Assembly: GCF_004123845.1 (NCBI RefSeq)
Contig: NZ_NBDP01000042.1
Coordinates: 1-64,000, forward strand
Direction of reading: 5' to 3'
DNA length: 64,000 bases
From: Allobosea sp. Tri-44
GTDB taxonomy: Bacteria > Pseudomonadota > Alphaproteobacteria > Rhizobiales > Beijerinckiaceae
Of this stretch, positions 23,548-44,898 are shown in pieces (position 1 is the stretch's first letter; the number at the start of each line of letters is the position of its first letter). Position numbers and translations under genes: made by a program. The notes below the pieces were generated by a model, which saw nothing but the letters and a program-made list of their open reading frames with translations, searched no databases and was not told the DNA's origin.

Positions 23548-23555
23548 GTTGAACT

Positions 23556-23765: not shown

Positions 23766-23772
23766 TAAGCAC

Positions 23773-26136
23773 TCACACAGGCGGCGGGTTCGCCTTGCGG
23801 ATCCGCTCGCCGATCGCGTGATAGAGCCCGTCGAGCGGGCGGAAGACGAAGCGGATCGTCGAGCGGCCGGGCGGCACCTGCACCGCCCGGAAGATCACGT
23901 TCGCCCGCAGCAACTCGGCCGGCTTGCCGTCGACCTCGACCTGCCACCAGGGCTGCCAGACATCGTTCAGCACGACGAAGCCGCCGCGCGGTGCATCAGC
24001 ATCGAGCAGCACCTCGGTCGTGCCGTAGTTGCGGATGCGGACGCTTCCCACCTGCGCCGGGCCGGTCGGAATAGGCGGCGGCGCCTTGTCGAGCAGGACG
24101 GTGCGGTGCGGATCGAAACCAGCAGGCCATTGGCCGCTCTTCAGGATCGCGCCGAAATCGGCAGCTTGCGCTTCCGTGACAAGAAGCACGCGCGGCAAGG
24201 CGCGCGGGTTCTCATAGACATAGGCGTCCTTGGTCCGGGCGATCTGGACGAGGTCGCCGGGCTTCAGCCGCTTGTCGATCTCCTCGACCGGGACGCCCGT
24301 CGCGATGAAGCGCAGGCCCAGCATGTCGGCGAGCAGCGAGCGGTAGGACGGCATCAGGGCCGAGAAGCTGCGCTGATCGGGCAGGGCGACATGGTCGCCG
24401 GCGCCGGTCGCCTGGCTGTAGAGGCCGAGGCGGAGCGGATTGTAACCCAGCGTGTTGTCGAGCCCGTGGACCAGGCTGGCGTTCGGCCAATGGAAATCGA
24501 TGCCGGCGAGCTCGATGCGGTCGCGCCGGTCGGGTCCGGCAGTGCGGGCGGTCTCGCGCTTGAGGAGGGCAATGGTCTCGTTGCTGCTGTCGGCGCGCAG
24601 CACCTCGTACATCCTGGCCGGCAGCGCGGTCGACTCGCTGGGGCCGTTGTTGACCGCAAGATCGACGATCATGGCGGCGGCGAGGACGATCGTCGCGGCC
24701 ATGCCCGCGCCTTGCAGGGCAAGCCCGCGCGCCGCGACCAGCGCGCCAGCGACCAGCATCAGGCAGAGCGCGGCGGTCACCAATGGCACGAAGGCGACAT
24801 GCAGGCGCCCGACCGTCCAGGCGAGCCAGATCGCCAGGCCGAAGCCTGCAAGCAGCAGCAGGATTTCGAGCGCGATCTGCCAGCAGCGCGGCCGCGGGGC
24901 GGTATCGGTCAGGACGAGATGGGTGAGATAGCCGCCAAGGATCGACAGCAGCGCGCCGAGGATGAAGAGTGCATCGGCCGGGCGACGGTAGAAATCGCTG
25001 CCAGGCAAGTGGAAGAGCAGGGCGAAGCCCGGTGTGTAGCGGCCGAGCGCATAGACCAGCACGATCAGCGCCGCAGCGCTGAGCGCGACGATCTCGCGCC
25101 GGAGCAGGGCGCCGCGGACGATGCCGACGCTGGCGACGAGCAGGATCGGCAGGAGGCCGAGATAGAGCTCGCCCATATTGCGGGCGAGATAGAGGTCGAG
25201 CGGGCCGAAGCGCTTCTCCCAGGCCGGGCTCGGCGGTCCCCAGAAATTCTCAAGCGGCCCGGACGCGCCGTAGAGATTGGCGATCAGTCCGGTCAGCAGC
25301 GAGCCCGGATGCAGCGAGCCCTTGCCGGCCCCGGCGAGATCAATGACCGGCCGGTTGGATTCCTCTGCCAGGACAGCGGTGAGCAGGATTGGCACCGTCG
25401 CGACCAGTGCCGCACCGAGTACGCCGAGCAGAAGGGGCACGATGCTCGCCCGCAGCGCCGCCAGCGGCCTGTCGGCCATGGCGATGGCGGCGAGGACCAG
25501 CCCGGCGAGGACATAGACGCCGAGCAGCGCGACCTGGTCGCGTCCCAGCACCATGAAGCCGGCGGCAAGACCTGCCGCGAAACCATAGCGCCAGGAACTG
25601 CGTTCGAGCGCCCGCGACAGCAGCAGCAGCGTCACCGCGAAACAGGACAGGCTCAGCACCTGTCCGACATGCTGGATGCGCCAGGCGGCAGCCGCGCCGA
25701 AGGCGAAGGAGAGGGCGCAGACGACCGCACCGGCCGGATGCCAGCCGCGATCACGGAAGAGCAGCACGAGGCAGAGCGCGCCGACGAGCAGCGACCCGAG
25801 CAGGGCGCCGTCGCTCCAGCGGAAATCCGGTGTCGGGTTGAGCAGGGCGATCAGGAAGAAGGGCGGTGAGAAGATCAGCGATTGCGGATCGGCGACCTGC
25901 GGCGAGCCGGCGAAGACGAAGGGCGTCCAGAACGGCGAGAGGCCCTTGTGCAGGGCGCTGGCGAGGAATTGCAGCTGCGGGTGGAAATGCGCTTTGGCGT
26001 CCCAGGGCACGGTGACGGCGCCGGAGAGCCAGGGCCAGGACAAAGCCAGCCAGCCGGCGCAGACCAGCAGCATTACCCTGGCGGTTGGCCAGGGTGCGGG
26101 TATCGGTTCGATCTCGTGGCGGTCCCGATCGGGCAT
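23773..26136 (-). CDS. Large polytopic membrane protein, YfhO/GT-C-like
   Basis: A 787-aa inner-membrane protein with roughly 11-13 hydrophobic segments in its first 500 residues and a soluble, probably periplasmic C-terminal part. The early loop WPWLSGAVTVPWDAKAHFHP and the following PQVADPQSL resemble the first loop of GT-C/YfhO-type proteins. Those use lipid-linked sugars to glycosylate envelope polymers. The C-terminal FVVLNDVWQPWWQVEVDGKP is also characteristic of YfhO-like proteins. The ATG at 26136 has AGGAAG upstream. The 47-base gap after ribA suggests co-transcription. Substrate unknown. Confidence 0.78.
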   Translation of the reverse strand: MPDRDRHEIEPIPAPWPTARVMLLVCAGWLALSWPWLSGAVTVPWDAKAHFHPQLQFLASALHKGLSPFWTPFVFAGSPQVADPQSLIFSPPFFLIALLNPTPDFRWSDGALLGSLLVGALCLVLLFRDRGWHPAGAVVCALSFAFGAAAAWRIQHVGQVLSLSCFAVTLLLLSRALERSSWRYGFAAGLAAGFMVLGRDQVALLGVYVLAGLVLAAIAMADRPLAALRASIVPLLLGVLGAALVATVPILLTAVLAEESNRPVIDLAGAGKGSLHPGSLLTGLIANLYGASGPLENFWGPPSPAWEKRFGPLDLYLARNMGELYLGLLPILLVASVGIVRGALLRREIVALSAAALIVLVYALGRYTPGFALLFHLPGSDFYRRPADALFILGALLSILGGYLTHLVLTDTAPRPRCWQIALEILLLLAGFGLAIWLAWTVGRLHVAFVPLVTAALCLMLVAGALVAARGLALQGAGMAATIVLAAAMIVDLAVNNGPSESTALPARMYEVLRADSSNETIALLKRETARTAGPDRRDRIELAGIDFHWPNASLVHGLDNTLGYNPLRLGLYSQATGAGDHVALPDQRSFSALMPSYRSLLADMLGLRFIATGVPVEEIDKRLKPGDLVQIARTKDAYVYENPRALPRVLLVTEAQAADFGAILKSGQWPAGFDPHRTVLLDKAPPPIPTGPAQVGSVRIRNYGTTEVLLDADAPRGGFVVLNDVWQPWWQVEVDGKPAELLRANVIFRAVQVPPGRSTIRFVFRPLDGLYHAIGERIRKANPPPV

Positions 26137-26183
26137 GGTGGCTTCCTGCCCCAGGCCCGGCGCGGGATCAATGCCGGCTCCAA

Positions 26184-27311
26184 TCAATCCTTCGGAGCGG
26201 CGCGCGCCATCAGCGCGTCCATGTCGATGAAGTGGCCGGCACGGTCGCGCTTCGAGGCGAGATAGCGAACATTATGGACGTTCGGGCGGCCGAGCACACG
26301 CTGGGTCGCAGCGACTTCGAGCCCTGCGGCCTTGATCGCCCCGACCTTGAGCGGGTTGTTGGTCAGCGCCGTGACGCTGGAGACGCCGAGTTGCTTCAGC
26401 ATGGCGGCGGCGAAGTCGAAATGGCGCTGGTCGAGATCGAAGCCGAGCACCTCGTCGGCGTCGTAGGTGTCCCAGCCCTGGCTCTGCAGCTTGTAGGCGC
26501 GCATCTTGTTGGAGATGCCGTTGCCGCGGCCCTCCTGGTCGAGATAGAGCAGGATGCCGCCCTCGTTCTGCGCCATCCACTGCACGGTCTCGCGCAGCTG
26601 GTCGCCGCAATCGCATTTCAGCGAGCCGAACAGGTCGCCGGTCAGGCAGGCGGAATGCAGCCGCACGGGCACGGCAGTCGAGAGATCAGGTTTGCCGACG
26701 ATGATCGCGACCTGATCGCGCAGGCCCTCGCCGCCGCGGAAGACGACGAACTCGGTATCTGGAGCTCCCTCCAGCGGCACCGGCGCACGGCCGACGATAG
26801 AGAGGCGGGCGACCTGCGCGGCGCGATAGCCGTTGACGGCCTCGATGGTGACCTCGATCAGCGGCTCGCCGGCGACCTGGGCCGCCGACACCGGCACCAG
26901 GATTACAGCCGGCAGCACGAGTGAGAGACGCGCCAGTTCGAGCGCAGCGTTGTCGAGCGGGCCGGCCGGGCCGACAGGCGCATCGACGCGGGCGTCGAGC
27001 TTCAGCGCAAGGGCCTCGATACGGGCCAGATCGATTGCCGGCATGGCGAGGATGCCGGTTTCCGCACGGCCCTTGGCGCCGAGACGGCGCAGGCGCGCAG
27101 CGCTCAGCACGAGGCGAGCATGGCCAGCGGAAAGATCGTCGAGACGGGTGGCGAGCTCAGCCTCAGCGAGCTCGGCCGCCAGCGCCAGCGCCAGCTCTCC
27201 GCCATGGCGCAGAAGCACGGGGCGGGCAGCGCGGAACTCGGCGAGAGCGCGGTCGACGGTGACCAGATCGGTTTCACCCGGCCGGCCGAAAAGCGTACGC
27301 GACTGAGGCAT
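26184..27311 (-). CDS. ribA: GTP cyclohydrolase II (RibA), divergent, N-terminally extended
   Basis: A 375-aa protein. The C-terminal 190 residues are GTP cyclohydrolase II, the first step of riboflavin synthesis (GTP to a diaminopyrimidinone phosphate). Zinc cysteines are Cys222, Cys233 and Cys235 in ACLTGDLFGSLKCDCG. YLDQEGRG, NKMRAYKLQSQGWDTYDAD, GFDLDQRHF and ALTNNPLKVGAIKAAGLEV follow. Deviations: HSAC replaces the usual HSEC, and NGIS replaces the usual IGLL after QEGR. The N-terminal 150 residues look like a worn DHBP-synthase domain without its acidic active-site motif. It may make riboflavin precursor or serve another GTP-derived product. Confidence 0.88.
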   Translation of the reverse strand: MPQSRTLFGRPGETDLVTVDRALAEFRAARPVLLRHGGELALALAAELAEAELATRLDDLSAGHARLVLSAARLRRLGAKGRAETGILAMPAIDLARIEALALKLDARVDAPVGPAGPLDNAALELARLSLVLPAVILVPVSAAQVAGEPLIEVTIEAVNGYRAAQVARLSIVGRAPVPLEGAPDTEFVVFRGGEGLRDQVAIIVGKPDLSTAVPVRLHSACLTGDLFGSLKCDCGDQLRETVQWMAQNEGGILLYLDQEGRGNGISNKMRAYKLQSQGWDTYDADEVLGFDLDQRHFDFAAAMLKQLGVSSVTALTNNPLKVGAIKAAGLEVAATQRVLGRPNVHNVRYLASKRDRAGHFIDMDALMARAAPKD

Positions 27312-27449
27312 CGGAAGGTCCGTCAGATTGCGCCCAAAAGCGGCGGAGGAAGTGTACTTGCTACGCGCGTCTCACTCGGATGGATGCACCCGGTACAACG
27401 TCGCGTTCCTAACAACGTGTCCGTTTCTGCGTGGTTCCCAAGACAGTGC

Positions 27450-27481
27450 CTGCAATCCATCTGATCGGCAGCGGATTGCAG
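27450..27481. promoter_or_regulatory. Inverted repeat between ribA and cytochrome b561
   Basis: Perfect nine-base arms CTGCAATCC and GGATTGCAG are 14 bases apart, in the 255-base divergent gap (27312-27566). TATAAA follows at 27489-27494, so it may overlap a promoter for the cytochrome gene. It does not resemble an FMN riboswitch. The regulator is unknown. Confidence 0.4.
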
Positions 27482-27566
27482 ACTGGCGTATAAAAGCGCG
27501 AGATTGAACACCAGATGAATAGTCTCAGCAGGAGCCGAATATGGCGATCGGGAGCGTCGAAGGGAA

Positions 27567-28148
27567 ATGACGCAGCGACATGACGAGGTGACAACTGGCG
27601 CGGGACGCTTCGCCTACAGCCGGGGGGCGCGGACCCTGCACTGGATCACGGCCGCGGCGGTGTTCGTAATGGTGCCGCTCGGGTTCGCCATGACCTATCG
27701 CGGCAACACGCTCGATATCTGGGACGGGGTGACCGACGCGCTCTATTCGACGCACAAGCTGATCGGCTTCCTCGTGCTCTGGCTCAGCGCCGGCCGATTG
27801 ATCTATCGGCTGCTGCGTGGCGCACCGCCCGACGAGCCGACGCTGGAATGGTGGCAGAAGGCCGCTTCGCACCTCGTCCACTGGGCGCTCTACGGTCTGC
27901 TGCTGATCGTGCCGCTGCTCGGTTGGATCGGCATCACGCTGTTTCCGTCGCTGACGGTGTTCGGTCTGTTCGACCTGCCTGCATTGGCCGCGCCCAATGA
28001 GGAGGTGGCCAAGCGGGTGCTCTTCGTCCATGGCTGGGTCGCTATCCTGCTGGCGCTGCTGGTCTGCGGGCATATCGCGGCCGCGCTCTTCCACTATTTC
28101 ATCCGCAAAGACGGTGTGCTGCGCCGGATGCTGCCCGGGCTGAAGTAA
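27567..28148 (+). CDS. Cytochrome b561-type membrane protein
   Basis: A 193-aa protein with four membrane helices. Histidines suited to bind two b haems occur in RTLHWITAAAVFVM, STHKLIGFLVLWL, LVHWALYGLLLIVPLLGW and VHGWVAILLALLVCGHIAAA. The family passes electrons from membrane quinol to periplasmic acceptors or oxygen. Arg in GRLIYRLLRG after helix 2 is typical. It is divergent from ribA and converges with the NUDIX gene, three bases from its stop. Confidence 0.9.
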   Translation: MTQRHDEVTTGAGRFAYSRGARTLHWITAAAVFVMVPLGFAMTYRGNTLDIWDGVTDALYSTHKLIGFLVLWLSAGRLIYRLLRGAPPDEPTLEWWQKAASHLVHWALYGLLLIVPLLGWIGITLFPSLTVFGLFDLPALAAPNEEVAKRVLFVHGWVAILLALLVCGHIAAALFHYFIRKDGVLRRMLPGLK

Positions 28149-33289: not shown

Positions 33290-34336
33290 CTACGCTCGCA
33301 GCACCCGCCGCACCGCCTTCGTCATCGGCCGCTCGAACCAGTGGTAGACCACAAGAGCCGCGAGCACGGCGGCGATCAGCGCCAGCACGATGAAGAGGCC
33401 GGTTGCGCTTGGCGCAATGCCGACGAAGACTTCGCGCAGCGCCCGCATGGCGAAGGGGTGGACGAGGTAGAGCGCGTAGGAGGCGTCGCCAAGGAGCGCG
33501 AGGGCGCGCACCAGCGCCGAGGGGGCGGTGACGTTGCGACCGCAGGCCGCGGCGGTGACCAGCAGCAGCGCCGCCGGCCCGCGCAGGGCGACGGCGCCCC
33601 AGGAGGTCTGCGCCCAGCCCTCGCCGGCGGCGATCACGAACAGGGCGATCCCGACTGCGGCCATGAGCCAGCGCAGGCGGCCGTCGAGCCTGAGGCCGTT
33701 CTGGCGGAGCAGGCCGACCGCCATGCCGGCGGCGAATTCGAGCACGATCGGCTGGCCCCAGAAGCCGAAGGGCAAAGGCAGCGGCCCGGCGAAGGCCTGT
33801 GCTGCGACCAGTCCGGCGAGCGCCACCGTAACCAGAGGCACGACCAGCCGCCCGGGCGCAAACAGCGCGACGCCGAACAGGACGTAGAACAGTATCTCGT
33901 AGTTCAGCGTCCAGCCGAGCGAATAGATCGGCTGGAACTGGCCTGCGACGTTCGGCATCGGCCAGAACAGATAGGAGGTGGCGATCTGCCCGAGGCTCGG
34001 CGTGTCGGAATTGACCAGCGCAGGCGAGGCGAGGAGCACGGCGAGGAAGAGCGTGGTCGCGGCCCAGTAAAGCGGCACGATCCGCGCGATGCGCCGGGCG
34101 ATGAACAGGCGTGCGCCATCCAGCTTGCCGAACAGCCCGGCCGAGGAGTGCACCATGATGAAGCCGGAGATGACGAAGAACAGGTCGACGCCGGCGGTCC
34201 AGGGCAAAGCATGCGAAGGCGTGAAGCTGGTGCCGGCCTTTGCTGCGAGGAAGCCGGCATCGGCCTGGACGTGGTGGATTGCGACCATCAGCGCCGCGAG
34301 CGCGCGCAGGACCTGGATGCCGTAGAGCTGGGGCAA
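33290..34336 (-). CDS. Acyltransferase 3 family membrane protein
   Basis: A 348-aa inner-membrane protein with about ten helices. The family signature is present: IQVLRALAALMVAIHHVQ (catalytic His), GVDLFFVISGFIMVHSS, RRIARIVPLYW and, near the end, YHWFERPMTK. Acyltransferase-3 enzymes acetylate or succinylate surface sugars. The start is TTG at 34336, directly before the conserved region. It follows glk by 44 bases on the same strand and may be co-transcribed. The acceptor is unknown. Confidence 0.92.
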   Translation of the reverse strand: MPQLYGIQVLRALAALMVAIHHVQADAGFLAAKAGTSFTPSHALPWTAGVDLFFVISGFIMVHSSAGLFGKLDGARLFIARRIARIVPLYWAATTLFLAVLLASPALVNSDTPSLGQIATSYLFWPMPNVAGQFQPIYSLGWTLNYEILFYVLFGVALFAPGRLVVPLVTVALAGLVAAQAFAGPLPLPFGFWGQPIVLEFAAGMAVGLLRQNGLRLDGRLRWLMAAVGIALFVIAAGEGWAQTSWGAVALRGPAALLLVTAAACGRNVTAPSALVRALALLGDASYALYLVHPFAMRALREVFVGIAPSATGLFIVLALIAAVLAALVVYHWFERPMTKAVRRVLRA

Positions 34337-34380: not shown

Positions 34381-35385
34381 TCAGCCAAACCACAAGCGCG
34401 CGGGATCGTCGAGGCCGAACCGGCTCGGAGTGGCGGCGATCGCTGCCAGGCCCTGTTCGGCGGCGTCATCGGTGGTGATGACGTTGAGCGCGAAGCGGGC
34501 GGCGAGATCCTCGACCGGCGGCTTGCCGGCGAAGACGGCATGGATCGTCGCCTTGTCGGCGAGCGGCAGGATGCGCGGCGCTATGCCGCCGGCGAGATAG
34601 ACCCCGCCTGTCGCCTTAAAGCCGAGCGCGAGATCGCCGGCAACGCGGGCCAGCAGCCGCCAGAAGCAGACCACCGCCATCAGCGCGGCGGGATTGCCGT
34701 CGAGCGCGAGCGCGGAGACATCGGCGGCGCTGACATCGGGCTCCGCTACATCGGATTGAGGCATCACCGCACGATGGAAGCGGATGAGACCGCTGCCGCT
34801 AAGCAATTCCTCGACCGTGACGCGTGGCAGCCCCTCGGCCAGAGCAGGCCAGAGCTTCACCTCGGTCGGATCCTCCGGGCCGATGCCGATATGGCCGGAT
34901 TCGGTCGGCACCAGCATGCCGGTGTCGCCACGTCGCAGCAGGGCGGCGGCGCCGAAGCCGGTGCCGGGACCGAGCACGAGGCGCGGACCTTCAGGCTCCG
35001 GTTGGCCGTGGACGAGATTGAACAGGTCACGGTCCCTCAAGACCGCCAGCGAGGCCGCCAGCGCCTCGAAATCATTGACCAGCAGCCCCTGCTCGAAGCC
35101 GAGCGCTTTACCAAGCACCGGGCCGTCAAAGTGCCAGCTGGCATTGGTGAGCTGCGCCTTGCGCCCATCGAGCGGGCCGGCGACAGCGAGGATCGCCGAG
35201 CGCGGCTTCACCGTCAGGGTCGAGAGCACCGAGCCGAGCGCTGCCTCGGGCGTCGGATGCGCGCCGGTGCTGATCCGGGCCAGCGGCTCATGCAGCGCGC
35301 CGGGCGTCGGCACCAGCGAGAGCCGGCAATTGGTGCCGCCGATATCGGCGACGAGGACCGGATGGGGAAAGCGGGGGCCGCTCAC
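34381..35385 (-). CDS. glk: Glucokinase (Glk family)
   Basis: A 334-aa enzyme of the non-ROK bacterial glucokinase family, near its usual 320 aa. The phosphate-1 motif is LVADIGGTNCRLSLV. AGPLDGRKAQLTNASWHFD, LLVNDFEALAASL, LGPGTGFGAAALL, ESGHIGIGPED and GVYLAGGIAPRI (adenosine motif) follow. The start is GTG at 35385, sharing four bases (GTGA) with the stop of the hydroxypyruvate isomerase gene; a longer in-frame extension is antisense noise. Tight coupling to an isomerase of C3/C4 keto-acids is unusual, so another sugar may be the substrate. Confidence 0.88.
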   Translation of the reverse strand: MSGPRFPHPVLVADIGGTNCRLSLVPTPGALHEPLARISTGAHPTPEAALGSVLSTLTVKPRSAILAVAGPLDGRKAQLTNASWHFDGPVLGKALGFEQGLLVNDFEALAASLAVLRDRDLFNLVHGQPEPEGPRLVLGPGTGFGAAALLRRGDTGMLVPTESGHIGIGPEDPTEVKLWPALAEGLPRVTVEELLSGSGLIRFHRAVMPQSDVAEPDVSAADVSALALDGNPAALMAVVCFWRLLARVAGDLALGFKATGGVYLAGGIAPRILPLADKATIHAVFAGKPPVEDLAARFALNVITTDDAAEQGLAAIAATPSRFGLDDPARLWFG

Positions 35386-36161
35386 GCGTGCTTCTTCCAC
35401 GGCGAGAACCAGCCGAGGCCTTCGAGCGTGCCGGCGCGGGGACGGTATTCGCAGCCGACAAAGCCGGCATAGCCGAGCGAATCGAGCTGCGTGAACAGTG
35501 CGGGATAGTCGGGCTTTGTGCCGTCGGGCTCGTGCCGTCCCTCGGCATTGGCGATCTGGACATGGCCGACCAGCGGGTAGAACGCCTCCAGGCGCGCACC
35601 GACATCGCCATGGATCAGTTCGCAATGATACATGTCGAACTGCAGCTTGACGTTCGGCCGGCCGGATTCGCGGACATAGGCCGCGGCCTGGTCGAAATCG
35701 TTGAGGAAATAGCCCGGCATGTCCTTGCCGTTGATCGGCTCGAGCAAGAGGTCGACGCCGTGTTCGCCGAGCTTGTCGGCGGCGTAGGCGAGCGAAGCGC
35801 GATAGGCCTTTTGCGCTGCCTGATCGTTCGGATCAGTGAGACCTGCCATCATGTGCACGCGCTTGACGCCGGTCTCGTGGACATAGGCAAGCGCGGTCTC
35901 GACGCCATCGCGGAATTCCTGCTCGCGGCCGGGCAACGCCGCCATGCCGCGCTCGCCCTTGGCCCAGTCGCCGGGCGGCAGGTTGAACAGCGCCTGCTCG
36001 AGCTCGCCACCGGCGAGGGCGAGGCCGACCTTCTCCGGAGCATGCTCATAAGGGAAGAGGAATTCCACCGCCTCGAAGCCGGCCTCGGCGGCCGCCTTGA
36101 AGCGGTCGAGGAAGTCCCACTCGTTGAACATCATCGAGAGATTGGCGGCAAAACGCGGCAT
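35382..36161 (-). CDS. Hydroxypyruvate isomerase family protein
   Basis: A 259-aa TIM-barrel isomerase, the length of Hyi and OtnI. MPRFAANLSMMFNEWDFLDR, FEAVEFLFPYEH, LLLEPINGKDMPGYFLND (metal-binding Glu), VKLQFDMYHCELIHGD (Asp and His ligands) and FVGCEYRPR are all typical. Family members interconvert hydroxypyruvate and tartronate semialdehyde (glyoxylate/glycerate route) or isomerise 2-oxo-tetronate. No glyoxylate carboligase or tartronate semialdehyde reductase is in the window. It overlaps glk by four bases. Confidence 0.9.
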   Translation of the reverse strand: MPRFAANLSMMFNEWDFLDRFKAAAEAGFEAVEFLFPYEHAPEKVGLALAGGELEQALFNLPPGDWAKGERGMAALPGREQEFRDGVETALAYVHETGVKRVHMMAGLTDPNDQAAQKAYRASLAYAADKLGEHGVDLLLEPINGKDMPGYFLNDFDQAAAYVRESGRPNVKLQFDMYHCELIHGDVGARLEAFYPLVGHVQIANAEGRHEPDGTKPDYPALFTQLDSLGYAGFVGCEYRPRAGTLEGLGWFSPWKKHA

Positions 36162-37179: not shown

Positions 37180-38163
37180 CTACTTCTTCGCTTCCGGCTT
37201 GGCGGGCGGGTTCGGGTCCTTCGAGAAGCCGCGGAAGACCATGTCGGGCGAGGAGGTGTTGTGGCGCGAATGATTGGTGCGGCCCATCCAGACATCGGTC
37301 GCCTTGCCGCCGGTGAAGGGCATCAGCGCCTCCTCGCGCCAGCCCTTGGCGCCGGGCTCGCGGATGGCGATGCGGGCGACGTCGTTGTTGAATTCGGTGA
37401 CATACATCGAGCGCAGCGCGGCGAAGGCCTTGCCACCGGCGACCGGTTTGTCGAGCACGGCGTCGAGCACCATGCGGTTCTCGTCGACGCTGTCGAGCTT
37501 CAGCGTCCCGGACGAACCGTCCTTGAAGGCGAGCTTGAAGGAGAGTGTCTTCGGGTCGAAGGCGATCTCCTTGATGTTCACGACGGGACGCGCACCGTCC
37601 TGCTCGACCGGGCCGAACAGGAAGGACGAGCCATAGGCCGCTGCCGAAAGCTGCTGCGGCGGCAGTGGCCGGACGCGCCAGTAGCCATCCTGCGGATAGA
37701 CGACCAGAACCTCATAGGAGCCGGTCTTGCCGAGCTTCCAGAGCTGGACGAGGTGCAGGCCCTTCTCGACGCGGTCGCCGACCCGGAAGGTCGTCTCGGC
37801 CGGGCGCCAGAAGCTCTCGAAGGTGTAGCCGACCAGCCAGTACTCGATGCTCTCGTAGAAGGTGATGCGCTGCGGCGGCACCGGCGCCTTGTGGACGGGA
37901 TCGCCGCTCATGTCGCAATCGGTCCAGTCCGCGTCCCAGTTGTCGCGCAGCAGGCCGGCAATATAGGCCGGATGCGCCGCCTCGATGCGGAAGCGCCTGA
38001 CCTCGGGCGAAATCGCCTTGATGGTGACGTTGTCCTTCTCGGCGCAGGCGACCTGCTCCGACTCGTTCTTGACCTCGACGGCGACGTCGCCGGCGGCATG
38101 TGCCGCGAAGGCGGTCAGCAGAAGCGTCACGGAGATGGCGAGCGGGCGAACGAGAGCGAGCAT
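37180..38163 (-). CDS. Exported protein of unknown function
   Basis: A 327-aa protein with a clear signal peptide (residues 1-23, hydrophobic core then AHAAG). The mature part is beta-rich, with cysteines at CAEKD and DCDMSGD that could pair, and a Pro/Lys-rich tail. I recognise no catalytic motif. MGRTNHSRHNTSSPDMVFRG near the C-terminus is His/Asn/Ser-rich and distinctive. The ATG at 38163 has AAGGA at good spacing. Expected in the periplasm. Role unknown. Confidence 0.75.
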   Translation of the reverse strand: MLALVRPLAISVTLLLTAFAAHAAGDVAVEVKNESEQVACAEKDNVTIKAISPEVRRFRIEAAHPAYIAGLLRDNWDADWTDCDMSGDPVHKAPVPPQRITFYESIEYWLVGYTFESFWRPAETTFRVGDRVEKGLHLVQLWKLGKTGSYEVLVVYPQDGYWRVRPLPPQQLSAAAYGSSFLFGPVEQDGARPVVNIKEIAFDPKTLSFKLAFKDGSSGTLKLDSVDENRMVLDAVLDKPVAGGKAFAALRSMYVTEFNNDVARIAIREPGAKGWREEALMPFTGGKATDVWMGRTNHSRHNTSSPDMVFRGFSKDPNPPAKPEAKK

Positions 38164-38359
38164 GGTCATCCTTGGTCGGTTGCGTTCGTGGTCAGCCTGG
38201 GCAGCGCAAGATGAACGCAGGCTGAGCCGGGTCATAGAGCCGATATGCCTGCGAAGAAAGCGCGACACCGTGGCAGCTTCCGCAATCGATGCCGGCAAGG
38301 CCAGACTGCCCTTGCGAGAGGCGCGCTTTGCGACCTTTCACGAGCGGGGACTGCCTTAG

Positions 38360-38749
38360 ATGCCGAGCTATGTCCTGGCCGCTGGCCTGCTGATGATCCT
38401 GATCGCCATCGCCCATTCCGTGATCGGCGAGATCCTGATCTTCCGGCAGCTTCGGGCGGGGACGATCGTGCCATTGCTCGCGCCGGCGCCGCTGCGCGAG
38501 CGGCACTTGCGCATCCTCTGGGCGAACTGGCACCTGTGTTCGGTGCTGGGCTGGGGGCTGGCAGCGCTGCTGATCCTGCTCGCGATGTCGCCCGATCTGC
38601 CGGCGCACGCCCTTCAGGTCCGGATCATCGCAATCGCGACCTTAGCCGGCTCTGTCCTCGTGCTGTTCGCGACCAAGGGTCGGCATCCGGGCTGGCTCGG
38701 CCTGCTCGTCGCGGCGGCGCTCGCCTGGCTCGGGCAGAGCGGTGCGTAA
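38360..38749 (+). CDS. Small four-helix membrane protein, unknown function
   Basis: A 129-aa protein with four hydrophobic segments, at about residues 5-27, 55-77, 85-103 and 110-126. Conserved-looking features are AHSVIGEILIFRQL after helix 1 and ILWANWHLCSVLGW at the start of helix 2. Similar small integral proteins are annotated only as hypothetical. It converges with the FkbM gene, five bases between the stops, and diverges from the exported protein. Confidence 0.75.
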   Translation: MPSYVLAAGLLMILIAIAHSVIGEILIFRQLRAGTIVPLLAPAPLRERHLRILWANWHLCSVLGWGLAALLILLAMSPDLPAHALQVRIIAIATLAGSVLVLFATKGRHPGWLGLLVAAALAWLGQSGA

Positions 38750-38754
38750 TTCTC

Positions 38755-39513
38755 TCAGCGCGACAGCAGCGCGTAGACGTCGCCGGAATTCGCCTCGTGC
38801 GGGAGGTCGCGGAGATGGCTGTGCATGGCCTCAGCATCGACCGGCTCCGGGAAGACCAGTGCCTGGCTTTCGCCCAGTGCGACGTTGAAGCGATAGGGGC
38901 CGAGGGCGGCGAGCCGGGCGAGGCATGCCTCAGCGACATCGCGCTGGATGGTGGTGAACTCGAAGGAGAGGGCGGGCGGCGTCTGGTTGAGGCCGGCGAG
39001 GACCTGCGCCTCGAAGCCCTCGACATCGATCTTCATGAAGGCGGGCAAGCCGTGCTCGGCGATCAGCGCATCGAGCGTGGTGCAAGGCACGGTGAGCTCG
39101 CGATCCCAGACCTGCTCGCGCCAGCCGTCCTGATCCTGCGCCGCGTCGACGAACTCGCCCGAGAGGGTCGAGACGGTGGGGTTGGCGCTGTTGATCCGGA
39201 GCGTCGCGGTGCCCTCGCTGTCGCCGCAGGCGGCCTCGACCAGCGTCACCTTGGGATCGCGGCCATGGATCAGGCGCAGCGCCCTTGCCGGCCCGGGCTG
39301 CGGTTCGAGCGCCACGACGCGGGCGCCGAGCCGGCGGAAGGAGGAGATGCGGTCGCCGACGTGGGCGCCGATGTCGAAGGCAAGATCGCCGGGGCGCAGG
39401 AAGCGGGCATAGAGCGAATCCATGGCGACCTTGCGGACATGGTCGCCATGGTAGACGCGCAGCGAGCGCCCAAGGCTCTTGGCGGTGCCTTTCGGGTAGG
39501 CGATCGGCTTCAT
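38755..39513 (-). CDS. FkbM-family methyltransferase
   Basis: A 252-aa SAM-dependent methyltransferase. The SAM site is LAFDIGAHVGDRISSFRRLG; VVALEPQPG, VTLVEAACGDSEGTATL and the FkbM hallmark FMKIDVEGFEAQVLAGL are present. FkbM enzymes O-methylate sugars and other hydroxyls. The ATG at 39513 overlaps the opgH stop by four bases, so the two are translationally coupled and the glucan is the likely target. A longer frame upstream is inside opgH and not used. Confidence 0.92.
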   Translation of the reverse strand: MKPIAYPKGTAKSLGRSLRVYHGDHVRKVAMDSLYARFLRPGDLAFDIGAHVGDRISSFRRLGARVVALEPQPGPARALRLIHGRDPKVTLVEAACGDSEGTATLRINSANPTVSTLSGEFVDAAQDQDGWREQVWDRELTVPCTTLDALIAEHGLPAFMKIDVEGFEAQVLAGLNQTPPALSFEFTTIQRDVAEACLARLAALGPYRFNVALGESQALVFPEPVDAEAMHSHLRDLPHEANSGDVYALLSR

Positions 39514-41333
39514 GGAGCGTTGCCGCCGTGAATCGCGACGATCTCGGCCGGTGGGTTGAAATCCTCGGGGATGCCGCAGAGGCCCGTGCGGGCGAAGAAT
39601 GCGCCCAGCGCCGGCGCCGCGGTCAGCATGGCGAAGGGGATGGCGAGGATGTAGCCGGCGGTCAGCGGAAGCGACCAGATCAGCACGGTCGGCGACAGCA
39701 CGGCGAGCGTGCCGAAGATGTAGAGCCCGAACAGCAGATGCGGCCAGAGACCGGCGAAGGCGGTGGCGAAGGAGAGGGCGTGCGCATCGCGCGCCTGGCC
39801 GTTCCAGCCGATCCTGGCCTTGCCGAAGACGAGGCCGATCATGAACAGCGTGGTCCGGAACGTCGAGACCGCGCCCTGCAGGAAGGCGAAGACGATCTCG
39901 ATCAGCGAGGAGACGACGAAGCGCAATGTGCCGCCATAGCGCTGCGTGCCCCCCTTGGTCAGCAGGATATCGGCGAAGCCTGCAAGCTTCGGCGAGAGAT
40001 ACATCGCGAAGAACAGCACGTAGAGGAAGGCGGCGAAGCCCGCGGGGTAATCCGCGATGCCGCGGTCCTCGAGGACCTTCAACGGCAGCAGCGCGATCAT
40101 CAACGTCCACGCCGGCAGGCCGATGAACATCAGGATCGCCCAGGCGAGCTGGAAGCGACTCATGACTTTCAAGCCCGGAATATCGAGTATTTTCAGGTAC
40201 TGCAGATTGCCGAGGCACCAGCGCAGGTCGCGCCGGGCGAATTCGAGCATGGTCGGCGGGTTCTCCTCCCAGCTGCCGGCCTCGATCGGCAGCACGCGAA
40301 CCTCGTAGCCGGCGCGGCGCATCAATGTCGCCTCGACCTGGTCATGGCTCATGATCGGCCCGCCGAGCGGCGGCCCGCCCGGCACGGTCGGCAGATGGCA
40401 GTGATCGCGGAAGGGCGCGATCCGAACAAAAGCGTTGTGGCCCCAGAACGGGCCGCAATCGCCGATCCACCAGGCCGAGCCCATGGTGTAGGGCCGCATG
40501 CCGTGGCGCATGCCGAACTGGAAGATGCGGGCGAAGGCCGATTTGCTCGGCATGCCGACGACGAGGCTCTGCAGGATACCGAGCTTCGGATAGGCCTGCA
40601 TCATCCGGGCGAGCTTCACGATGGCGTGGCCGGACATGACGCTGTCGGCGTCGAGCGGCAGCATCAATTCGTAGCGATCGCCCCAGCGTTCGCAGAAATC
40701 GCGGACATTGCCGGCCTTGTAGCCGGCATTGTCGCTGCGGCGGCGATAGACGATGGTGCAATCCTCACCGGCGTCGCGCGAGAGCTCGGCCGCAAGCGCC
40801 TCCTCGCGGGCTGCCACCGCGGGGTCATTCGTGTCGGAGAGCACGAAATAATCGAACCAGCCGCCTTCGCCGGTGGCGTTGAGGCTCTCCTTGACGATGC
40901 GCAGCCGCGCAAAGGCGCGGGCCGGGTCTTCGTTGCGCAGCGTCATCAGCACGGCAGTGCGGACCGCGAGCGGTGTATCGGCCTCGCCGGCAGCGGCGAA
41001 GGGGGCGACCTGATCGACCCCGTCCCTGGTGCCATGCAGCAGCCAGAGTCCGATCACGGCATTCCAGAAACCGAGTACCGTCCAGGGCGCGCCGAACAGG
41101 AAGGCGATGAAGATCGCGATGTCGGCAAGGCTCCAGCCGCCGGCCGAGAGCACGCGCGACAGGCCGTAGAGCAGCGCTGCCAGCGTGACGAGGTTCAGGG
41201 CCGCGACGAGCCAGCGCCGCGCCCGCAAGGTGGAGAAGGACTGCAGCCCCGCCGGCGTCAGCCTGGTGTCCTCTTGCGCCGCCGCCTGGAACGTGGTCGG
41301 AGCGGGACGCTGGTTCATGGCGGTTTCCGTCAT
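39510..41333 (-). CDS. opgH: Glucan biosynthesis glucosyltransferase OpgH/MdoH
   Basis: A 607-aa inner-membrane GT2 enzyme that polymerises the glucose backbone of osmoregulated periplasmic glucans from UDP-glucose. It has two N-terminal helices, then a cytoplasmic catalytic domain with VLMTLRNEDPARAF, SDNAGYKAGNVRDF, MLPLDADSVMSG (DxD), GPFWGHNAFVR and RRDLRWCLGNLQY, and then about six helices. It is shorter than enteric OpgH (about 850 aa), lacking most of the N-terminal tail. Starts at 41333 and 41318 are both possible. No opgG is adjacent. It is coupled to the FkbM gene. Confidence 0.93.
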   Translation of the reverse strand: MTETAMNQRPAPTTFQAAAQEDTRLTPAGLQSFSTLRARRWLVAALNLVTLAALLYGLSRVLSAGGWSLADIAIFIAFLFGAPWTVLGFWNAVIGLWLLHGTRDGVDQVAPFAAAGEADTPLAVRTAVLMTLRNEDPARAFARLRIVKESLNATGEGGWFDYFVLSDTNDPAVAAREEALAAELSRDAGEDCTIVYRRRSDNAGYKAGNVRDFCERWGDRYELMLPLDADSVMSGHAIVKLARMMQAYPKLGILQSLVVGMPSKSAFARIFQFGMRHGMRPYTMGSAWWIGDCGPFWGHNAFVRIAPFRDHCHLPTVPGGPPLGGPIMSHDQVEATLMRRAGYEVRVLPIEAGSWEENPPTMLEFARRDLRWCLGNLQYLKILDIPGLKVMSRFQLAWAILMFIGLPAWTLMIALLPLKVLEDRGIADYPAGFAAFLYVLFFAMYLSPKLAGFADILLTKGGTQRYGGTLRFVVSSLIEIVFAFLQGAVSTFRTTLFMIGLVFGKARIGWNGQARDAHALSFATAFAGLWPHLLFGLYIFGTLAVLSPTVLIWSLPLTAGYILAIPFAMLTAAPALGAFFARTGLCGIPEDFNPPAEIVAIHGGNAP

Positions 41334-41374
41334 GGGCTCATCAGGCTGGCGGGGAACGGCGCGGAGGGCGATGC

Positions 41375-42367
41375 GTGGTAAAGCCGGCAATTGCAAACGA
41401 AGCAAGCGCGCAGGCGACCGCGCTCTGGTATGCCGCCGCGCGTGAATGCGTCCTGAACACGGAAGAATTGCCCGCGCCGGGGCCGGACGACTGCCTCGTG
41501 CGCACGCTCTGGAGCGGCATCAGCCGCGGTACCGAGCGGCTGGTCTTCGAAGGCCGCGTGCCTGCGAGCGAATATGAGCGCATGCGAGCCCCCTTCCAGC
41601 AGGGCGCGTTTCCGTTCCCGGTGAAGTACGGCTACTGCGCCGTCGGCATGGTGGATGCGGGGCCGGCCGAGCTGCTCGGCAAGCGGGTCTTCTGCCTGCA
41701 TCCGCATCAGGACCGCTTCGTCGCGCCGGTGGACCGCGTGGCCGTGGTGCCCGAGGGCATCCCGGCGAGACGTGCCGTGCTCGCCGCGAACATGGAAACC
41801 GCGCTCAATGCGCATTGGGATGCCGGCTCCGGTCCGGCCGATCGGATCGTCGTGGTTGGCGGCGGCGTGCTCGGCCTGCTCACCGCCTTCATCGCGGGCA
41901 AGCTTCCAGGCGCGGAGGTGACGCTGGTCGATCTCGACGAGAGCCGCGCCGGGCTCGCTGAGATGCTGGGCTGCCGCTTCGCGCTGCCGGCAGACTGCCC
42001 GCGGGACGCCGATCTCGTCTTCCATGCCAGCGCGAGTGCCGCCGGCCTCGCCACGGCGATCGCCGCGGCCGGCTTCGAGACTCGGATCGTCGAGCTGAGC
42101 TGGTATGGCGAAGGGAGCGTCGCGGCACCGCTTGGCGGCGCCTTCCATGCGCGGCGCCTGCAGCTCGTCTCCTCGCAGGTCGGGCAGGTTTCACCCTCGC
42201 GGCGGGCGCGGTTCGATTATGCCCGCCGTACGCAGGCCGCTCTGGCGTTGCTGGCGGATGAACGGCTCGATGCGCTGATCACTGACGAGATCGCGTTCAA
42301 GGATGCGCCTTCGCACCTGCCGGCGCTGTTCGCCGGCGCAGGGCTGACGGCGGTTCTGCGCTATTGA
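41375..42367 (+). CDS. Medium-chain dehydrogenase/reductase, BchC-like
   Basis: A 330-aa member of the zinc-type alcohol dehydrogenase superfamily. The N-terminal domain has LWSGISRGTERLVFEGRVP, resembling bacteriochlorophyllide dehydrogenase BchC. It then has PVKYGYCAVG instead of the usual GHE zinc motif. The Rossmann domain is IVVVGGGVLGLLTAFIAG with VDLDE, which suggests NAD. NMETALNAHWDA is typical of this subgroup. The start is GTG at 41375 with GGAGGG upstream. It is the first gene of a four-gene + strand run with the PTPS-like, glycosyltransferase and methyltransferase genes. No other chlorophyll gene is present, so BchC activity is not implied. Confidence 0.85.
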   Translation: MVKPAIANEASAQATALWYAAARECVLNTEELPAPGPDDCLVRTLWSGISRGTERLVFEGRVPASEYERMRAPFQQGAFPFPVKYGYCAVGMVDAGPAELLGKRVFCLHPHQDRFVAPVDRVAVVPEGIPARRAVLAANMETALNAHWDAGSGPADRIVVVGGGVLGLLTAFIAGKLPGAEVTLVDLDESRAGLAEMLGCRFALPADCPRDADLVFHASASAAGLATAIAAAGFETRIVELSWYGEGSVAAPLGGAFHARRLQLVSSQVGQVSPSRRARFDYARRTQAALALLADERLDALITDEIAFKDAPSHLPALFAGAGLTAVLRY

Positions 42368-42417
42368 CGTCGCGCCCCGGCCTTCGCCAAGACTGCGCGC
42401 GCTGAAGGAGACTGCCC

Positions 42418-42819
42418 ATGTTTTCCGTCGAAGTCCGCGATCGCATCATGATCGGCCATTCGCTGCCGGACCCATTCTTCGGCCCGGCGCAGGCGATGCA
42501 TGGCGCGACTTTCGTCGTCGATGTCGCCTTCTTCCGCGAGAACCTGACCCGCCAGAACGTCGTGGTCGATATCGGCGCGGCGCTCACCGTGCTGAACCAG
42601 ACGCTGAAGCCGCTGAATTACCAGAACCTCGATGCCCTGCCGCAGTTCGCGGGCGTGCTGACCACCACCGAATTCCTCTGTAAGTACATCTTCGATGCGA
42701 TGGCGGCCGCGGCGCGCTCCGGCAAGCTCGGCGCGGACGCCGCCGGTCTCGCCAAGATCCGCGTCACCCTGCACGAGACCGACCTGGCGCGGGCGAGCTA
42801 TGAGGGCGCGCTCGCGTGA
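42418..42819 (+). CDS. PTPS/QueD-fold protein lacking the catalytic triad
   Basis: A 133-aa protein of the 6-pyruvoyl/6-carboxytetrahydropterin synthase fold. His14, His28 and Glu120 (in VTLHETDLARASYEG, the pterin-anchoring ET motif) are kept. The rest of the active site differs from E. coli QueD by eye. The catalytic Cys position is Ala24. The zinc HGH reads HGA, with Ala30. The Asp-His pair (LDHH) is LNYQ. So either it binds a pterin without the usual chemistry or it does a different reaction. It lies 50 bases after the dehydrogenase, with a good start at 42418. Family membership is firm; function is open. Confidence 0.85.
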   Translation: MFSVEVRDRIMIGHSLPDPFFGPAQAMHGATFVVDVAFFRENLTRQNVVVDIGAALTVLNQTLKPLNYQNLDALPQFAGVLTTTEFLCKYIFDAMAAAARSGKLGADAAGLAKIRVTLHETDLARASYEGALA

Positions 42820-42854
42820 CGTCCTGCCGGGCAGACGCGTCGGATGGCGCGACC

Positions 42855-42977
42855 TACCCTCTCCCCCCTTGTGGGGGAGAGATGGAGAGGGGGGTAGTCA
42901 GCCGTGCGGCTGATCGCAGGCGATTCAGCGCTCACCCGGTCACCCCCCTCCCAACCCTCCCCCACAAGGGGGGAGGG
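42855..42977. repeat. Paired C/G-rich hairpins inside the operon
   Basis: CTCTCCCCC and GGGGGAGAG pair at 42859-42881, and CCCTCCCCC and GGGGGGAGGG pair at 42955-42977. The two halves are also inverted copies of each other (AGGGGGG versus CCCCCCT). The element fills most of the 190-base gap between the PTPS-like and glycosyltransferase genes and could weaken read-through. Confidence 0.7.
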
Positions 42978-43009
42978 CTTGGCGTCGTGCCTCATTTGGG
43001 CCGGGTATC

Positions 43010-44062
43010 GTGAGCGAGATCGTCTTCGCCATTCCCGGCGATCTGTCGCTGCCAACCGGCGGCTATGGTTATGGCCGCCGGCTCCTGGCGGAATGGCGCG
43101 AGATGGGCGTCGCGGCGCAGCATCTGCAGCTGCCGGGCGGCTTCCCGAACCCGAGCGAGACCGATCTCGCCGAGACTGGCCGGGCGATCCTGTCGCAGTC
43201 CTATGACAGCGTGCTGCTGATCGACGGGCTCGCCTATGGCGCCTTTCCGGAGAGCATCGCGGCCGGGCTCGCCGGGCGTGTCGTCGCTCTGGTGCATCAT
43301 CCGCTCGGGCTAGAAACGGGACTGTCGCCGGTGCAGGCGGCGGAGTTCGTCAGGCGCGAGGCGGCGGCCTTGCGCTATGCGGCCGCTGTCATCGCCTCCA
43401 GCGAGACGACCAAGCGGTTGCTCGTTGCCGATTTCGCTGTGCCGGCGGAACGCATCACCGTGGCCGAGCCCGGTGTCGATCCAGCCGCGCGGGCTGTCGG
43501 CTCAGGTGATGGCGAGACGGTCAAGTTGCTGGCGGTCGGCTCGCTCGTGCCGCGCAAGGGCTATGACGTTCTCGTCGCGGCGCTGGAGGGGCTGGCCGAC
43601 AGGCCGTGGCGTCTCACCATCGTTGGCGCCGATGATCGTGCCCCTGCGACCACAGCCGCTTTGAAGGCGCAGATCGCCGCTGCTGGGCTGTCCGGGCGGA
43701 CCAGGCTTGCCGGTGCATTAGGGCAGAGCGAGCTCGACATGGCCTATGCGAAGGCTGATCTCTTCGTCATGCCCTCGCTGTTCGAGGGCTATGGCATGGT
43801 GCTGACCGAGGCATTGGCGCGCGGCCTCCCGATCCTGTGCACCACCGGCGGCGCGGCGGCCGAGACGGCGCCGGACGACGCTGCGCTGAAAGTGCCGCCG
43901 GGCGATGTGGCGGCGTTACGCGCGGGGCTGGCACGGTTGTTGGATGATAGAGACGAGCGTCAGCGCCGTGCCGACGCGGCCTGGCAGGCGGCCGGCGCAC
44001 TGCCGCGCTGGCGGCGGACTGCGACGATCGTCGCTGAAGTGTGTGCGAAGGTTATTCCATGA
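43010..44062 (+). CDS. Glycosyltransferase family 4 protein
   Basis: A 350-aa GT-B-fold retaining glycosyltransferase. The N-terminal glycine-rich loop is LPTGGYGYGRRLL. The donor domain has LLAVGSLVPRKGYDVLVAAL, and the E-x7-E motif lies in PSLFEGYGMVLTEALARG. GT4 enzymes use UDP- or GDP-sugars. The acceptor is unknown. No polysaccharide genes are adjacent, and the neighbours (dehydrogenase, PTPS fold, methyltransferase) suggest a small-molecule acceptor such as a pterin, as is known for cyanobacterial biopterin glucosyltransferases. The start is GTG at 43010. It overlaps the methyltransferase gene by four bases. Confidence 0.9.
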   Translation: MSEIVFAIPGDLSLPTGGYGYGRRLLAEWREMGVAAQHLQLPGGFPNPSETDLAETGRAILSQSYDSVLLIDGLAYGAFPESIAAGLAGRVVALVHHPLGLETGLSPVQAAEFVRREAAALRYAAAVIASSETTKRLLVADFAVPAERITVAEPGVDPAARAVGSGDGETVKLLAVGSLVPRKGYDVLVAALEGLADRPWRLTIVGADDRAPATTAALKAQIAAAGLSGRTRLAGALGQSELDMAYAKADLFVMPSLFEGYGMVLTEALARGLPILCTTGGAAAETAPDDAALKVPPGDVAALRAGLARLLDDRDERQRRADAAWQAAGALPRWRRTATIVAEVCAKVIP

Positions 44063-44898
44063 GCGGATTTTCTCCCGATTGGCTCGCTCTGCGCGAACCG
44101 GCCGACCATGCCGCACGCAATCCGCAGGTGCTGGCTGCGGTCGGCTCGACCTTTGCCGGACGGCAATCGCTCTCCGTCGTCGATCTCGGCTGCGGTGCCG
44201 GCTCTAACCTGCGCGGCAGCTACAGCGCGCTGCCCGTGCGCCAGCACTGGACGCTGGTCGATGCCGATAGTCGCCTGCTCTCGGTGGCGCGGCGCAAGCT
44301 CGCCGAATGGGCCGACGAGGCGCAGGAGCAGGGCGAGGAGATCGTCCTGCGCAAGGACGACAAGACGCTGACGGTCGATTTCCGCCAGGCGGACCTCAAC
44401 AAGGAACTCGAATGGGTGCTCGGCTGGCAGCCCGACCTCGTCACCGCCGCCGCGCTGTTTGATCTCGCCTCGGCGCGCTGGCTCGAGCGCTTCGTCGCCT
44501 CGCTCGTCAGCATGCGGCTGCCGCTCTACACTGTGCTGACCTATGATGGCCGCGAGAGCTGGGAGCCGGCGCATGCCGACGACCAGCGCATGCTCGCCGC
44601 CTTCCACCATCACCAGCGCAGCGACAAGGGCTTCGGTCCGGCGGCCGGGCCCGATGCCACTGAGGCGCTGGCGCAGGCCTTCCGCAAGGCTGGCACTGCG
44701 GTCACCGTCGGCGAAAGCCCTTGGCAGCTTGAAGCGGGCCAGCCCGATCTGATCCGCGAGCTGGCGGCCGGGATCGCCGCTGCCGTTGGCGACACCGGGC
44801 ATGTCGCGCCGGAGGCGATCGCGGGCTGGCTGGAGGCGAAGCGGAGCGCGACCTCCGTCCGCATCGGCCATCAGGACCTCTGGGCGCGGCCAGTCTGA
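44059..44898 (+). CDS. Class I SAM-dependent methyltransferase
   Basis: A 279-aa methyltransferase. The SAM-binding motif I is SVVDLGCGAGSNLRGSY, with WTLVDADSRLLSVARRKLAE as motif II and LVTAAALFDLASARWLERFV further on. The C-terminal part (about 150-279) carries SWEPAHADDQRMLAAFHHHQ, which I do not recognise from any named enzyme. The ATG at 44059 overlaps the glycosyltransferase stop (ATGA), so these two are made together. Its substrate is presumably the glycosyltransferase product. Confidence 0.88.
   Translation: MSGFSPDWLALREPADHAARNPQVLAAVGSTFAGRQSLSVVDLGCGAGSNLRGSYSALPVRQHWTLVDADSRLLSVARRKLAEWADEAQEQGEEIVLRKDDKTLTVDFRQADLNKELEWVLGWQPDLVTAAALFDLASARWLERFVASLVSMRLPLYTVLTYDGRESWEPAHADDQRMLAAFHHHQRSDKGFGPAAGPDATEALAQAFRKAGTAVTVGESPWQLEAGQPDLIRELAAGIAAAVGDTGHVAPEAIAGWLEAKRSATSVRIGHQDLWARPV

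Follow-up and report, generated by a model that had tools for sequence, protein, structure and literature searches.

What do four adjacent genes of Allobosea sp. Tri-44, encoding a dehydrogenase, a T-fold protein related to PTPS, a GT4 glycosyltransferase and a methyltransferase, make together? These genes are located on the + strand of the window, by which we mean the whole stretch of 64,000 nt analysed here (contig NZ_NBDP01000042.1, positions 1 to 64,000), from a genome of 6.05 Mb in 76 contigs. A first-pass annotation of this DNA had placed four open reading frames (ORFs) at 41375-44898, the last two overlapping by ATGA, and had proposed that they represent an undescribed small-molecule pathway with a glycosylated, methylated pterin-like product. 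The four ORFs were confirmed, as was the ATGA at 44059-44062 that is common to the end of the GT4 gene and the start of the methyltransferase gene, and the proposal of an undescribed, conserved small-molecule pathway is supported by the conservation of this four-gene core, which was found in alpha-, beta- and gammaproteobacteria as well as in actinobacteria. Given how tightly it is inherited as a unit and how widely it occurs, the core very likely produces something useful. We favour a dedicated pathway, patchy in its distribution and carried in part on plasmids, that derives from GTP, is fed by GTP cyclohydrolase II (RibA) and a RibD-type reductase, and leads to a methylated, glycosylated 2-amino-pteridine (or pyrimidine) compound for the envelope, a reading that we consider evenly balanced between right and wrong.

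Conservation of the four-gene core

Of the 249 genomes of the order, 68 encode the T-fold protein, and so do, with scores of at least 190 bits, 27 of 398 Pseudomonadota genomes, where the next score was 49. It was also found on 20 plasmid records, including records of Streptomyces, Microbacterium and Thiodictyon, and a pattern scan of named genomes yielded at least 572 confirmed relatives among 595 stretches, with Xanthomonas, Polynucleobacter and Alcaligenaceae records among them; 80 of these were used here. Among the matches listed, the closest locus in a named genome was that of Bosea sp. Root483D1, with a T-fold protein match of 98%. A plasmid near-identity search and a phage search gave no match.

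Gene neighbourhoods were compared in 120 loci, which remained from a set of 149 (window excluded) after 29 loci with flanks shorter than 6 kb were dropped; several genomes are represented in the set under two ids (L042/L108, L098/L148, L063/L158, L047/L114 and others). Partners were counted with phmmer from seeds of annotated genes and of the window, so that partners outside these hand-chosen seeds could be missed. Plain ORF clustering was dropped for the counts, as the clusters were blurred by antisense frames in G+C-rich genomes. Anywhere in the stretch around the T-fold gene, the dehydrogenase was found in 115, the methyltransferase in 113 and a GT4 of this type in 109 of the 120 loci; when only genes on the same strand and close to the T-fold gene were counted, these numbers were 114, 110 and 105, respectively. 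In 96 loci all four genes formed a tight group on a single strand. Gene order and co-occurrence across genomes had been suggested as a check by the first-pass annotation, and the genes do stay together.

The association between the dehydrogenase and the T-fold protein was even stricter. With score limits that, here as in the other genome co-occurrence tables, were placed by eye at gaps, the dehydrogenase subfamily (at least 370 bits, the next listed scores being 218 and 208) was present in exactly the 68 genomes with the T-fold protein, each time on the same contig, and in none of the 181 others. In none of the 249 genomes did one of the two proteins occur without the other, so that both very likely act in a single step or in two adjacent ones. 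Three T-fold genes without any of the searched partners were found in the locus set, two on Streptomyces plasmids (L037 and L040) and one as a second copy in a Hyphomicrobiales genome (L056). An actinobacterial metagenome bin labelled Aquiluna (L150) showed the cluster layout of Rhodobacterales, and a binning error is possible.

The order dehydrogenase, T-fold protein, GT4 and methyltransferase was also seen in Methylosinus, Peteryoungia, Thiodictyon, Streptomyces and Microbacterium. In the window, 50 bases separate the dehydrogenase and T-fold genes, and the 190 bases between the T-fold gene and the GT4 gene contain a palindromic repeat element (42850-42990) with arms of 33 bases. A search of the organism's own genome for this palindrome gave 24 match rows, a number that includes the element itself and single arms of one place, and revealed four other near full-length places. 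Because the T-fold and GT4 genes of Peteryoungia overlap by 4 bases, the gap in the window looks like a local insertion.

Family tests of the core proteins

The families assigned by the first-pass annotation were largely borne out, including the domains PF01242 in the T-fold protein (72.5 bits) and PF00534 in the GT4 (101 bits) and a methyltransferase fold, which was assigned from an AlphaFold2 model with Foldseek. The T-fold protein shares its PF01242 domain with PTPS and QueD, but scored below the family cut-offs of both the QueD model (29.9 bits against 89.25) and the 6PTHBS model (25.4 bits against 125.5). In a profile alignment to 1b66 and 2g64, the position of the catalytic Cys of PTPS, four residues before the zinc His, was occupied by Ala in 149 and by Gly in one of 150 T-fold sequences, and HGA replaced the zinc-binding HGH in all 150. 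H14 and H28 were retained in 23 of 23 sequences, and the Asp-His pair of the LDHxxLD motif was lost in just as many, a Tyr standing at the His position. The working pterin synthase implied by the first-pass annotation can thus not be upheld, the catalytic Cys, the His and one zinc ligand being replaced; judged by these residues, it cannot be counted among the PTPS enzymes. E120, near the C-terminus, is invariant, and most rows carry the surrounding motif HExxxAxxxYE; this residue may correspond to the pterin-anchoring Glu of T-fold/PTPS enzymes.

The T-fold protein belongs to the same subfamily as SCO6650 of Streptomyces coelicolor (PDB 3d7j), which it matched over the whole chain with 211 bits (E 3.8e-62) and which also carries HGA. 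The PDB entry labels SCO6650 as uncharacterized, and a structure paper of 2008 reportedly found no PTPS activity for this protein. In public annotation the T-fold gene is named 6-carboxytetrahydropterin synthase, mostly with a queuosine Gene Ontology (GO) term, and the core dehydrogenase is named a zinc-binding alcohol dehydrogenase. Since the catalytic residues of the former and the zinc motif of the latter are gone, both of these names are misleading.

For the dehydrogenase, the GxCGSD catalytic zinc motif was found in none of 140 sequences. It falls in the same medium-chain branch as BchC, the bacteriochlorophyllide dehydrogenase, but as a distant member: the score against the BchC model TIGR01202 was 54.6 bits, far under the cut-off of 291.25, and none of the 11 plasmid neighbourhoods examined had an annotated bacteriochlorophyll gene. 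The BchC likeness noted in the first-pass annotation therefore appears to be only a distant one. The GT4 is without a clear assignment; its nearest solved relatives were D-inositol 3-phosphate glycosyltransferase and others, with a weaker match to WaaG of lipopolysaccharide (LPS) synthesis.

RibA and a RibD-like reductase associated with the core

In addition to the core genes, three partners recurred in the 120 loci, namely RibA (56 loci), a reductase of the RibD_C type (72 loci) and cytochrome b561 (61 loci). RibA of the window scored 489 bits against NF006456, above the cut-off of 464, and retains the zinc cysteine motifs HSACLTGDLFGSLKCDC and the Tyr of the RAY motif. This Tyr was present in 56 of 63 RibA sequences, with Met in one, the pattern not being found in the remaining 6. 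RibA of the window thus passes as an enzyme of the riboflavin pathway type and differs from it by a RibB-like N-terminal domain that lacks the RibB motif. The likeness of this domain to RibB had an hhalign probability of 84 (E 8e-6) in a single comparison of 15 against 5 sequences, and the RibB catalytic motif D[DES]x[DES]RE occurred in 0 of the 63 RibA sequences, some of which are short forms without the domain. Seven hand-picked genomes served as the RibB yardstick, and the motif pick failed for two of the seven loci. The second GTP cyclohydrolase II-like gene of the organism's own genome (L188) was rejected as a yardstick, as it is not a RibBA.

The possibility that GTP cyclohydrolase II supplies this pathway had been raised by the first-pass annotation, and the link gained support from four other Bosea loci, in which the RibA gene adjoins the operon, and from the genomes of the order. 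A long RibA (at least 240 bits) was found in 46 of the 249 genomes, comprising 39 of the 68 with the core and 7 of the 181 others. The RibD-like subfamily (at least 225 bits, next scores 140 or less) was found in 51 genomes, 50 of them with the core; the sole exception among the 181 others is 56% complete and shares its genus with a positive genome. Both proteins were present in 30 of the 68 core genomes, the RibD-like protein only in 20, the long RibA only in 9 and neither in 9. In eight genomes the genes for RibA and the RibD-like protein are neighbours but separate from the core, in five at more than 50 kb from it (G065, G070, G106, G207 and G230) and in three on other contigs of draft assemblies (G167, G211 and G232), which indicates that their tie to the core exceeds shared location.

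The RibD-like protein has a RibD_C domain, and its nearest solved structure was 6p8c, which bears the name 2,5-diamino-6-ribosylamino-4(3H)-pyrimidinone 5'-phosphate reductase, followed by 2azn, which bears that of a putative aminouracil reductase. Compared with RibD and the diaminopyrimidine reductases, it represents a separate subfamily that is tied to the T-fold core and falls under the NCBIfam cut-offs; the one member scanned (L045) scored 106 bits against TIGR01508, for which the cut-off is 186.

The position of the RibA gene varies among relatives. In four Bosea loci (L104-L107) the methyltransferase gene is directly followed by genes for cytochrome b561, RibA and the YfhO-like protein, and in Rhabdaerophilum (L112) the RibD-like gene is located between those for b561 and RibA. 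In the window the RibA/YfhO/b561 block is 14 kb from the operon, across U9 (21755-28148 compared with 37180-44898), and the close relatives L101-L103, like the window, do not have the block beside the operon. This distribution points towards a rearrangement within the lineage of the window.

A plasmid of Streptomyces fungicidicus carries the four core genes together with RibA and an adjoining gene for a creatininase-family hydrolase, and this RibA has Met in place of the Tyr. The Met variant of GTP cyclohydrolase II stops at the formyl compound. The creatininase-family hydrolase could remove the formyl group and thereby reach the same intermediate by another route; creatininase-family genes were also seen in three RibA loci with Tyr. 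A different, weakly matching type of GTP cyclohydrolase II takes the place of RibA in L063, L065, L091, L092, L100 and L158, and in three of these (L063, L158 and L065) the altered Tyr position reads RAKLDCLALQ or RAKLECLALQ.

Envelope modules around the core

The statement in the first-pass annotation that no polysaccharide genes are nearby was wrong, as genes for an OpgH-type glucan glucosyltransferase and an FkbM-type methyltransferase adjoin the operon (Table 1). The OpgH-type synthase scored 925 bits against NF003963 (cut-off 884), and 41 bases separate the likely starts of its gene and of the operon. Beyond the FkbM-type gene, U9 encodes a probably secreted protein whose AlphaFold2 model (predicted local distance difference test, pLDDT, 84.9) aligned with OpgG (1txk) over 219 residues at 3.3 Å with a Z score of 13.9 and with OpgD at 13.1, the next unrelated structure among those listed scoring 6.4. 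This likeness came from the second aligner only, Foldseek alone giving nothing under E 0.001, and U9 had no Pfam match to the MdoG family PF04349 at E 0.01. In comparison with OpgGH periplasmic glucan synthesis, the window therefore has an OpgH-type synthase over the cut-off and an OpgG/OpgD-like fold, but in a protein without an MdoG sequence match. Wherever U9 was found in the 120 loci it was accompanied by an OpgH-type gene (37 of 37). Canonical OpgG was present in 15 of 18 hand-picked core genomes and absent from 3, and was near the operon only in G188, at about 6 kb. The organism's own genome (G000) has four MdoG/OpgG genes, on contigs C12, C34, C45 and C56 and none on the operon contig.

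A second module was found in other loci, and the two are near-exclusive. An OpgH-type gene only was present in 80 of the 120 loci, a CDP-alcohol phosphotransferase gene only in 19, both in one (L146) and neither in 20. A flippase accompanied the phosphotransferase in 14 of its 20 loci and a sulfatase in 15 of 20, and both were absent from the 100 other loci. Cytochrome b561 occurred in 47 of the 80 loci with OpgH only, in 12 of the 19 with the phosphotransferase only and in 2 of the 20 with neither. We infer that the OpgH and phosphotransferase modules are interchangeable routes by which one product would be moved to, or anchored at, the envelope.

Upstream of U9 in the window are genes for a glucokinase (34381-35625) and an acyltransferase-3 membrane protein (33290-34336), and clusters containing them border the locus in some of the other Bosea as well.

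Table 1. Coordinates and characteristics of the genes of the window discussed in the text
Feature	Position	Strand	Remarks
YfhO/PMT-like membrane protein	23773..26187	-	weak Pfam matches; frame overlaps RibA by 4 bases
GTP cyclohydrolase II (RibA)	26184..27311	-	NF006456, 489 bits; N-terminal domain resembling decayed RibB
Cytochrome b561	27567..28148	+	next to RibA
U9, probably secreted all-beta protein	37180..38169	-	OpgG/OpgD-like fold; no Pfam/NCBIfam family
FkbM-type methyltransferase	38755..39513	-	overlaps OpgH-type gene
OpgH (MdoH)-type glucan glucosyltransferase	39510..41333	-	NF003963; divergent from operon
BchC-like medium-chain dehydrogenase	41375..42367	+	catalytic zinc motif replaced, SGISRGTE for GxCGSD
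T-fold protein, SCO6650/3d7j family, PTPS-like	42418..42819	+	A24 for catalytic Cys, HGA for zinc HGH
GT4 glycosyltransferase	43010..44062	+	PF00534
Class I S-adenosylmethionine-dependent methyltransferase	44059..44898	+	ATGA overlap with GT4

A proposed pathway and its alternatives

The pathway that we propose would begin with RibA, which, its RibB activity lost, is predicted from orthology and motifs to open GTP to 2,5-diamino-6-ribosylamino-pyrimidinone 5'-phosphate. A stand-alone RibD-type reductase, present in most relatives, would then reduce the sugar with retention of the 2-amino group; as the organism's own genome is without the RibD-like protein, its housekeeping RibD would serve in this step. 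Taken together, the evidence on RibA and the RibD-like protein suggests that the pathway branches off from riboflavin synthesis at 2,5-diamino-6-ribosylamino-pyrimidinone phosphate. The committed chemistry would fall to the zinc-free dehydrogenase and the T-fold protein, which may oxidise the side chain of a pterin-type substrate and bring about its ring closure or a rearrangement. The methyltransferase and the GT4 may then decorate the product, and the envelope module may export, extend or anchor it, through an OpgH/OpgG-like module in Bosea and many Hyphomicrobiales, and through a CDP-alcohol phosphotransferase, an LPG-synthase-type flippase and a sulfatase-type transferase in Rhizobiaceae, actinobacteria and some others. 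The genetic evidence, comprising the conservation, the co-occurrence, the domains and motifs and the near-exclusive modules, is strong, and from it the chemical steps, their order, the product and the envelope as its destination are deduced. The origin from GTP is better supported than the pterin ring, and a glycosylated, methylated pterin is a fair guess. The pterin glucosyltransferases of cyanobacteria, to which the first-pass annotation had pointed, offer a likeness that extends to the idea of a sugar-modified pterin.

Several observations weigh against this reading. The residues on which the known PTPS/QueD reaction depends are missing from the T-fold protein. Neither a long RibA nor the RibD-like protein was found in 9 of the 68 core genomes, and five of the 7 core-less genomes with a long RibA belong to one genus, so that this RibA must have other uses. 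The RibD-like protein of L045 matched the general NCBIfam model of the RibD C-terminus best, and this too under the cut-off; the diamino substrate is therefore a lead, no more. The RibD-like subfamily was not found in the organism's own genome, where the sole match (E 2e-24) is of the housekeeping class by score. U9 is present in 9 of the 181 core-less genomes, and several core genomes carry it at some other site; since it occurs without the core, the U9/OpgGH-like module is not dedicated to it. Rhodobacterales examples have no GT4 beside the T-fold gene (it is further upstream in L034 and L143, and there is none in L039). The correlations of gene-tree distances among the partners were moderate, at 0.25-0.74 without a neutral control. 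Furthermore, the genomes are related and the co-occurrence counts are not independent, the 68 core genomes representing 35 genera.

A different explanation is that the locus makes a glucan or glycolipid and no pteridine at all, in which case a saccharide would be assembled and methylated by the GT4, FkbM, OpgH, U9 and the methyltransferase, with the dehydrogenase and T-fold protein modifying a sugar nucleotide. The OpgH-type synthase and OpgG-like U9 next to the core, solved GT4 relatives named for inositol, lipid or LPS acceptors, and a T-fold protein lacking known catalytic residues are all consistent with this. It does not account, however, for RibA and the RibD-like protein, which track the core across genomes even where they are unlinked, nor for the 19 of 120 loci in which the core is kept with the other envelope module instead, and U9 itself occurs without the core; we regard this explanation as unlikely, but deserving of serious consideration.

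The substrate could also be dihydroneopterin triphosphate, the product of GTP cyclohydrolase I, with the T-fold protein acting as a PTPS-like lyase by another mechanism and yielding a tetrahydropterin glycoside as in cyanobacteria. The PTPS fold recognised by Pfam and the invariant E120, in the region of the assumed pterin-anchoring Glu, would fit this route, which we nevertheless find rather improbable, as the Cys, the Asp/His pair and one zinc ligand are gone, it is GTP cyclohydrolase II and a RibD-like protein that recur as partners, and none of the 11 plasmid neighbourhoods, whose gene tables are incomplete, has an annotated GTP cyclohydrolase I (the genomes were not searched for the enzyme).

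Still somewhat less probable is a phospholipid product whose head group is a pyrimidine or pteridine glycoside, with OpgH replacing the phospholipid step by way of a glucan carrier. That the CDP-alcohol phosphotransferase, flippase and sulfatase travel together where the OpgH module is absent speaks for it, and the 20 of 120 loci with neither module within the stretch, and the one with both, speak against it. A queuosine or other 7-deazapurine pathway with a QueD-like T-fold protein, as the public name and GO term would have it, is highly implausible given the QueD score of 29.9 against a cut-off of 89.25, the lost catalytic residues, and the lack of an annotated queC, queE or queF in the same incompletely tabulated plasmid neighbourhoods.

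Returning to the GTP-derived, RibA/RibD-fed pathway, the presence of cytochrome b561 with both envelope modules may hint at a product that is redox-active at the membrane. The most far-reaching form of this idea is an envelope-located redox compound, a methylated, glycosylated GTP-derived pteridine (for example an 8-ribityl 2-amino-pteridine) that would be held in the periplasm on a glucan or phospholipid, be kept reduced by cytochrome b561 and be widespread in proteobacteria and actinobacteria; as a whole, this picture is speculative and improbable.

Novelty and significance

A description of this pathway was not found in the open-licence full-text literature, as judged by titles and the openings of abstracts, and subscription journals may hold one; in the same material, mentions of single genes of the S. 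coelicolor cluster exist. The parts of the core are of known kinds, one member having a solved structure, and carry misleading names as a queuosine-type synthase and a zinc alcohol dehydrogenase. If the GTP-derived pathway proposed here is true, it would provide a function for the orphan T-fold protein SCO6650 and for GTP cyclohydrolases II dispensable for riboflavin synthesis, and it would connect chemistry of the pteridine type with modules for periplasmic glucans or phospholipids.

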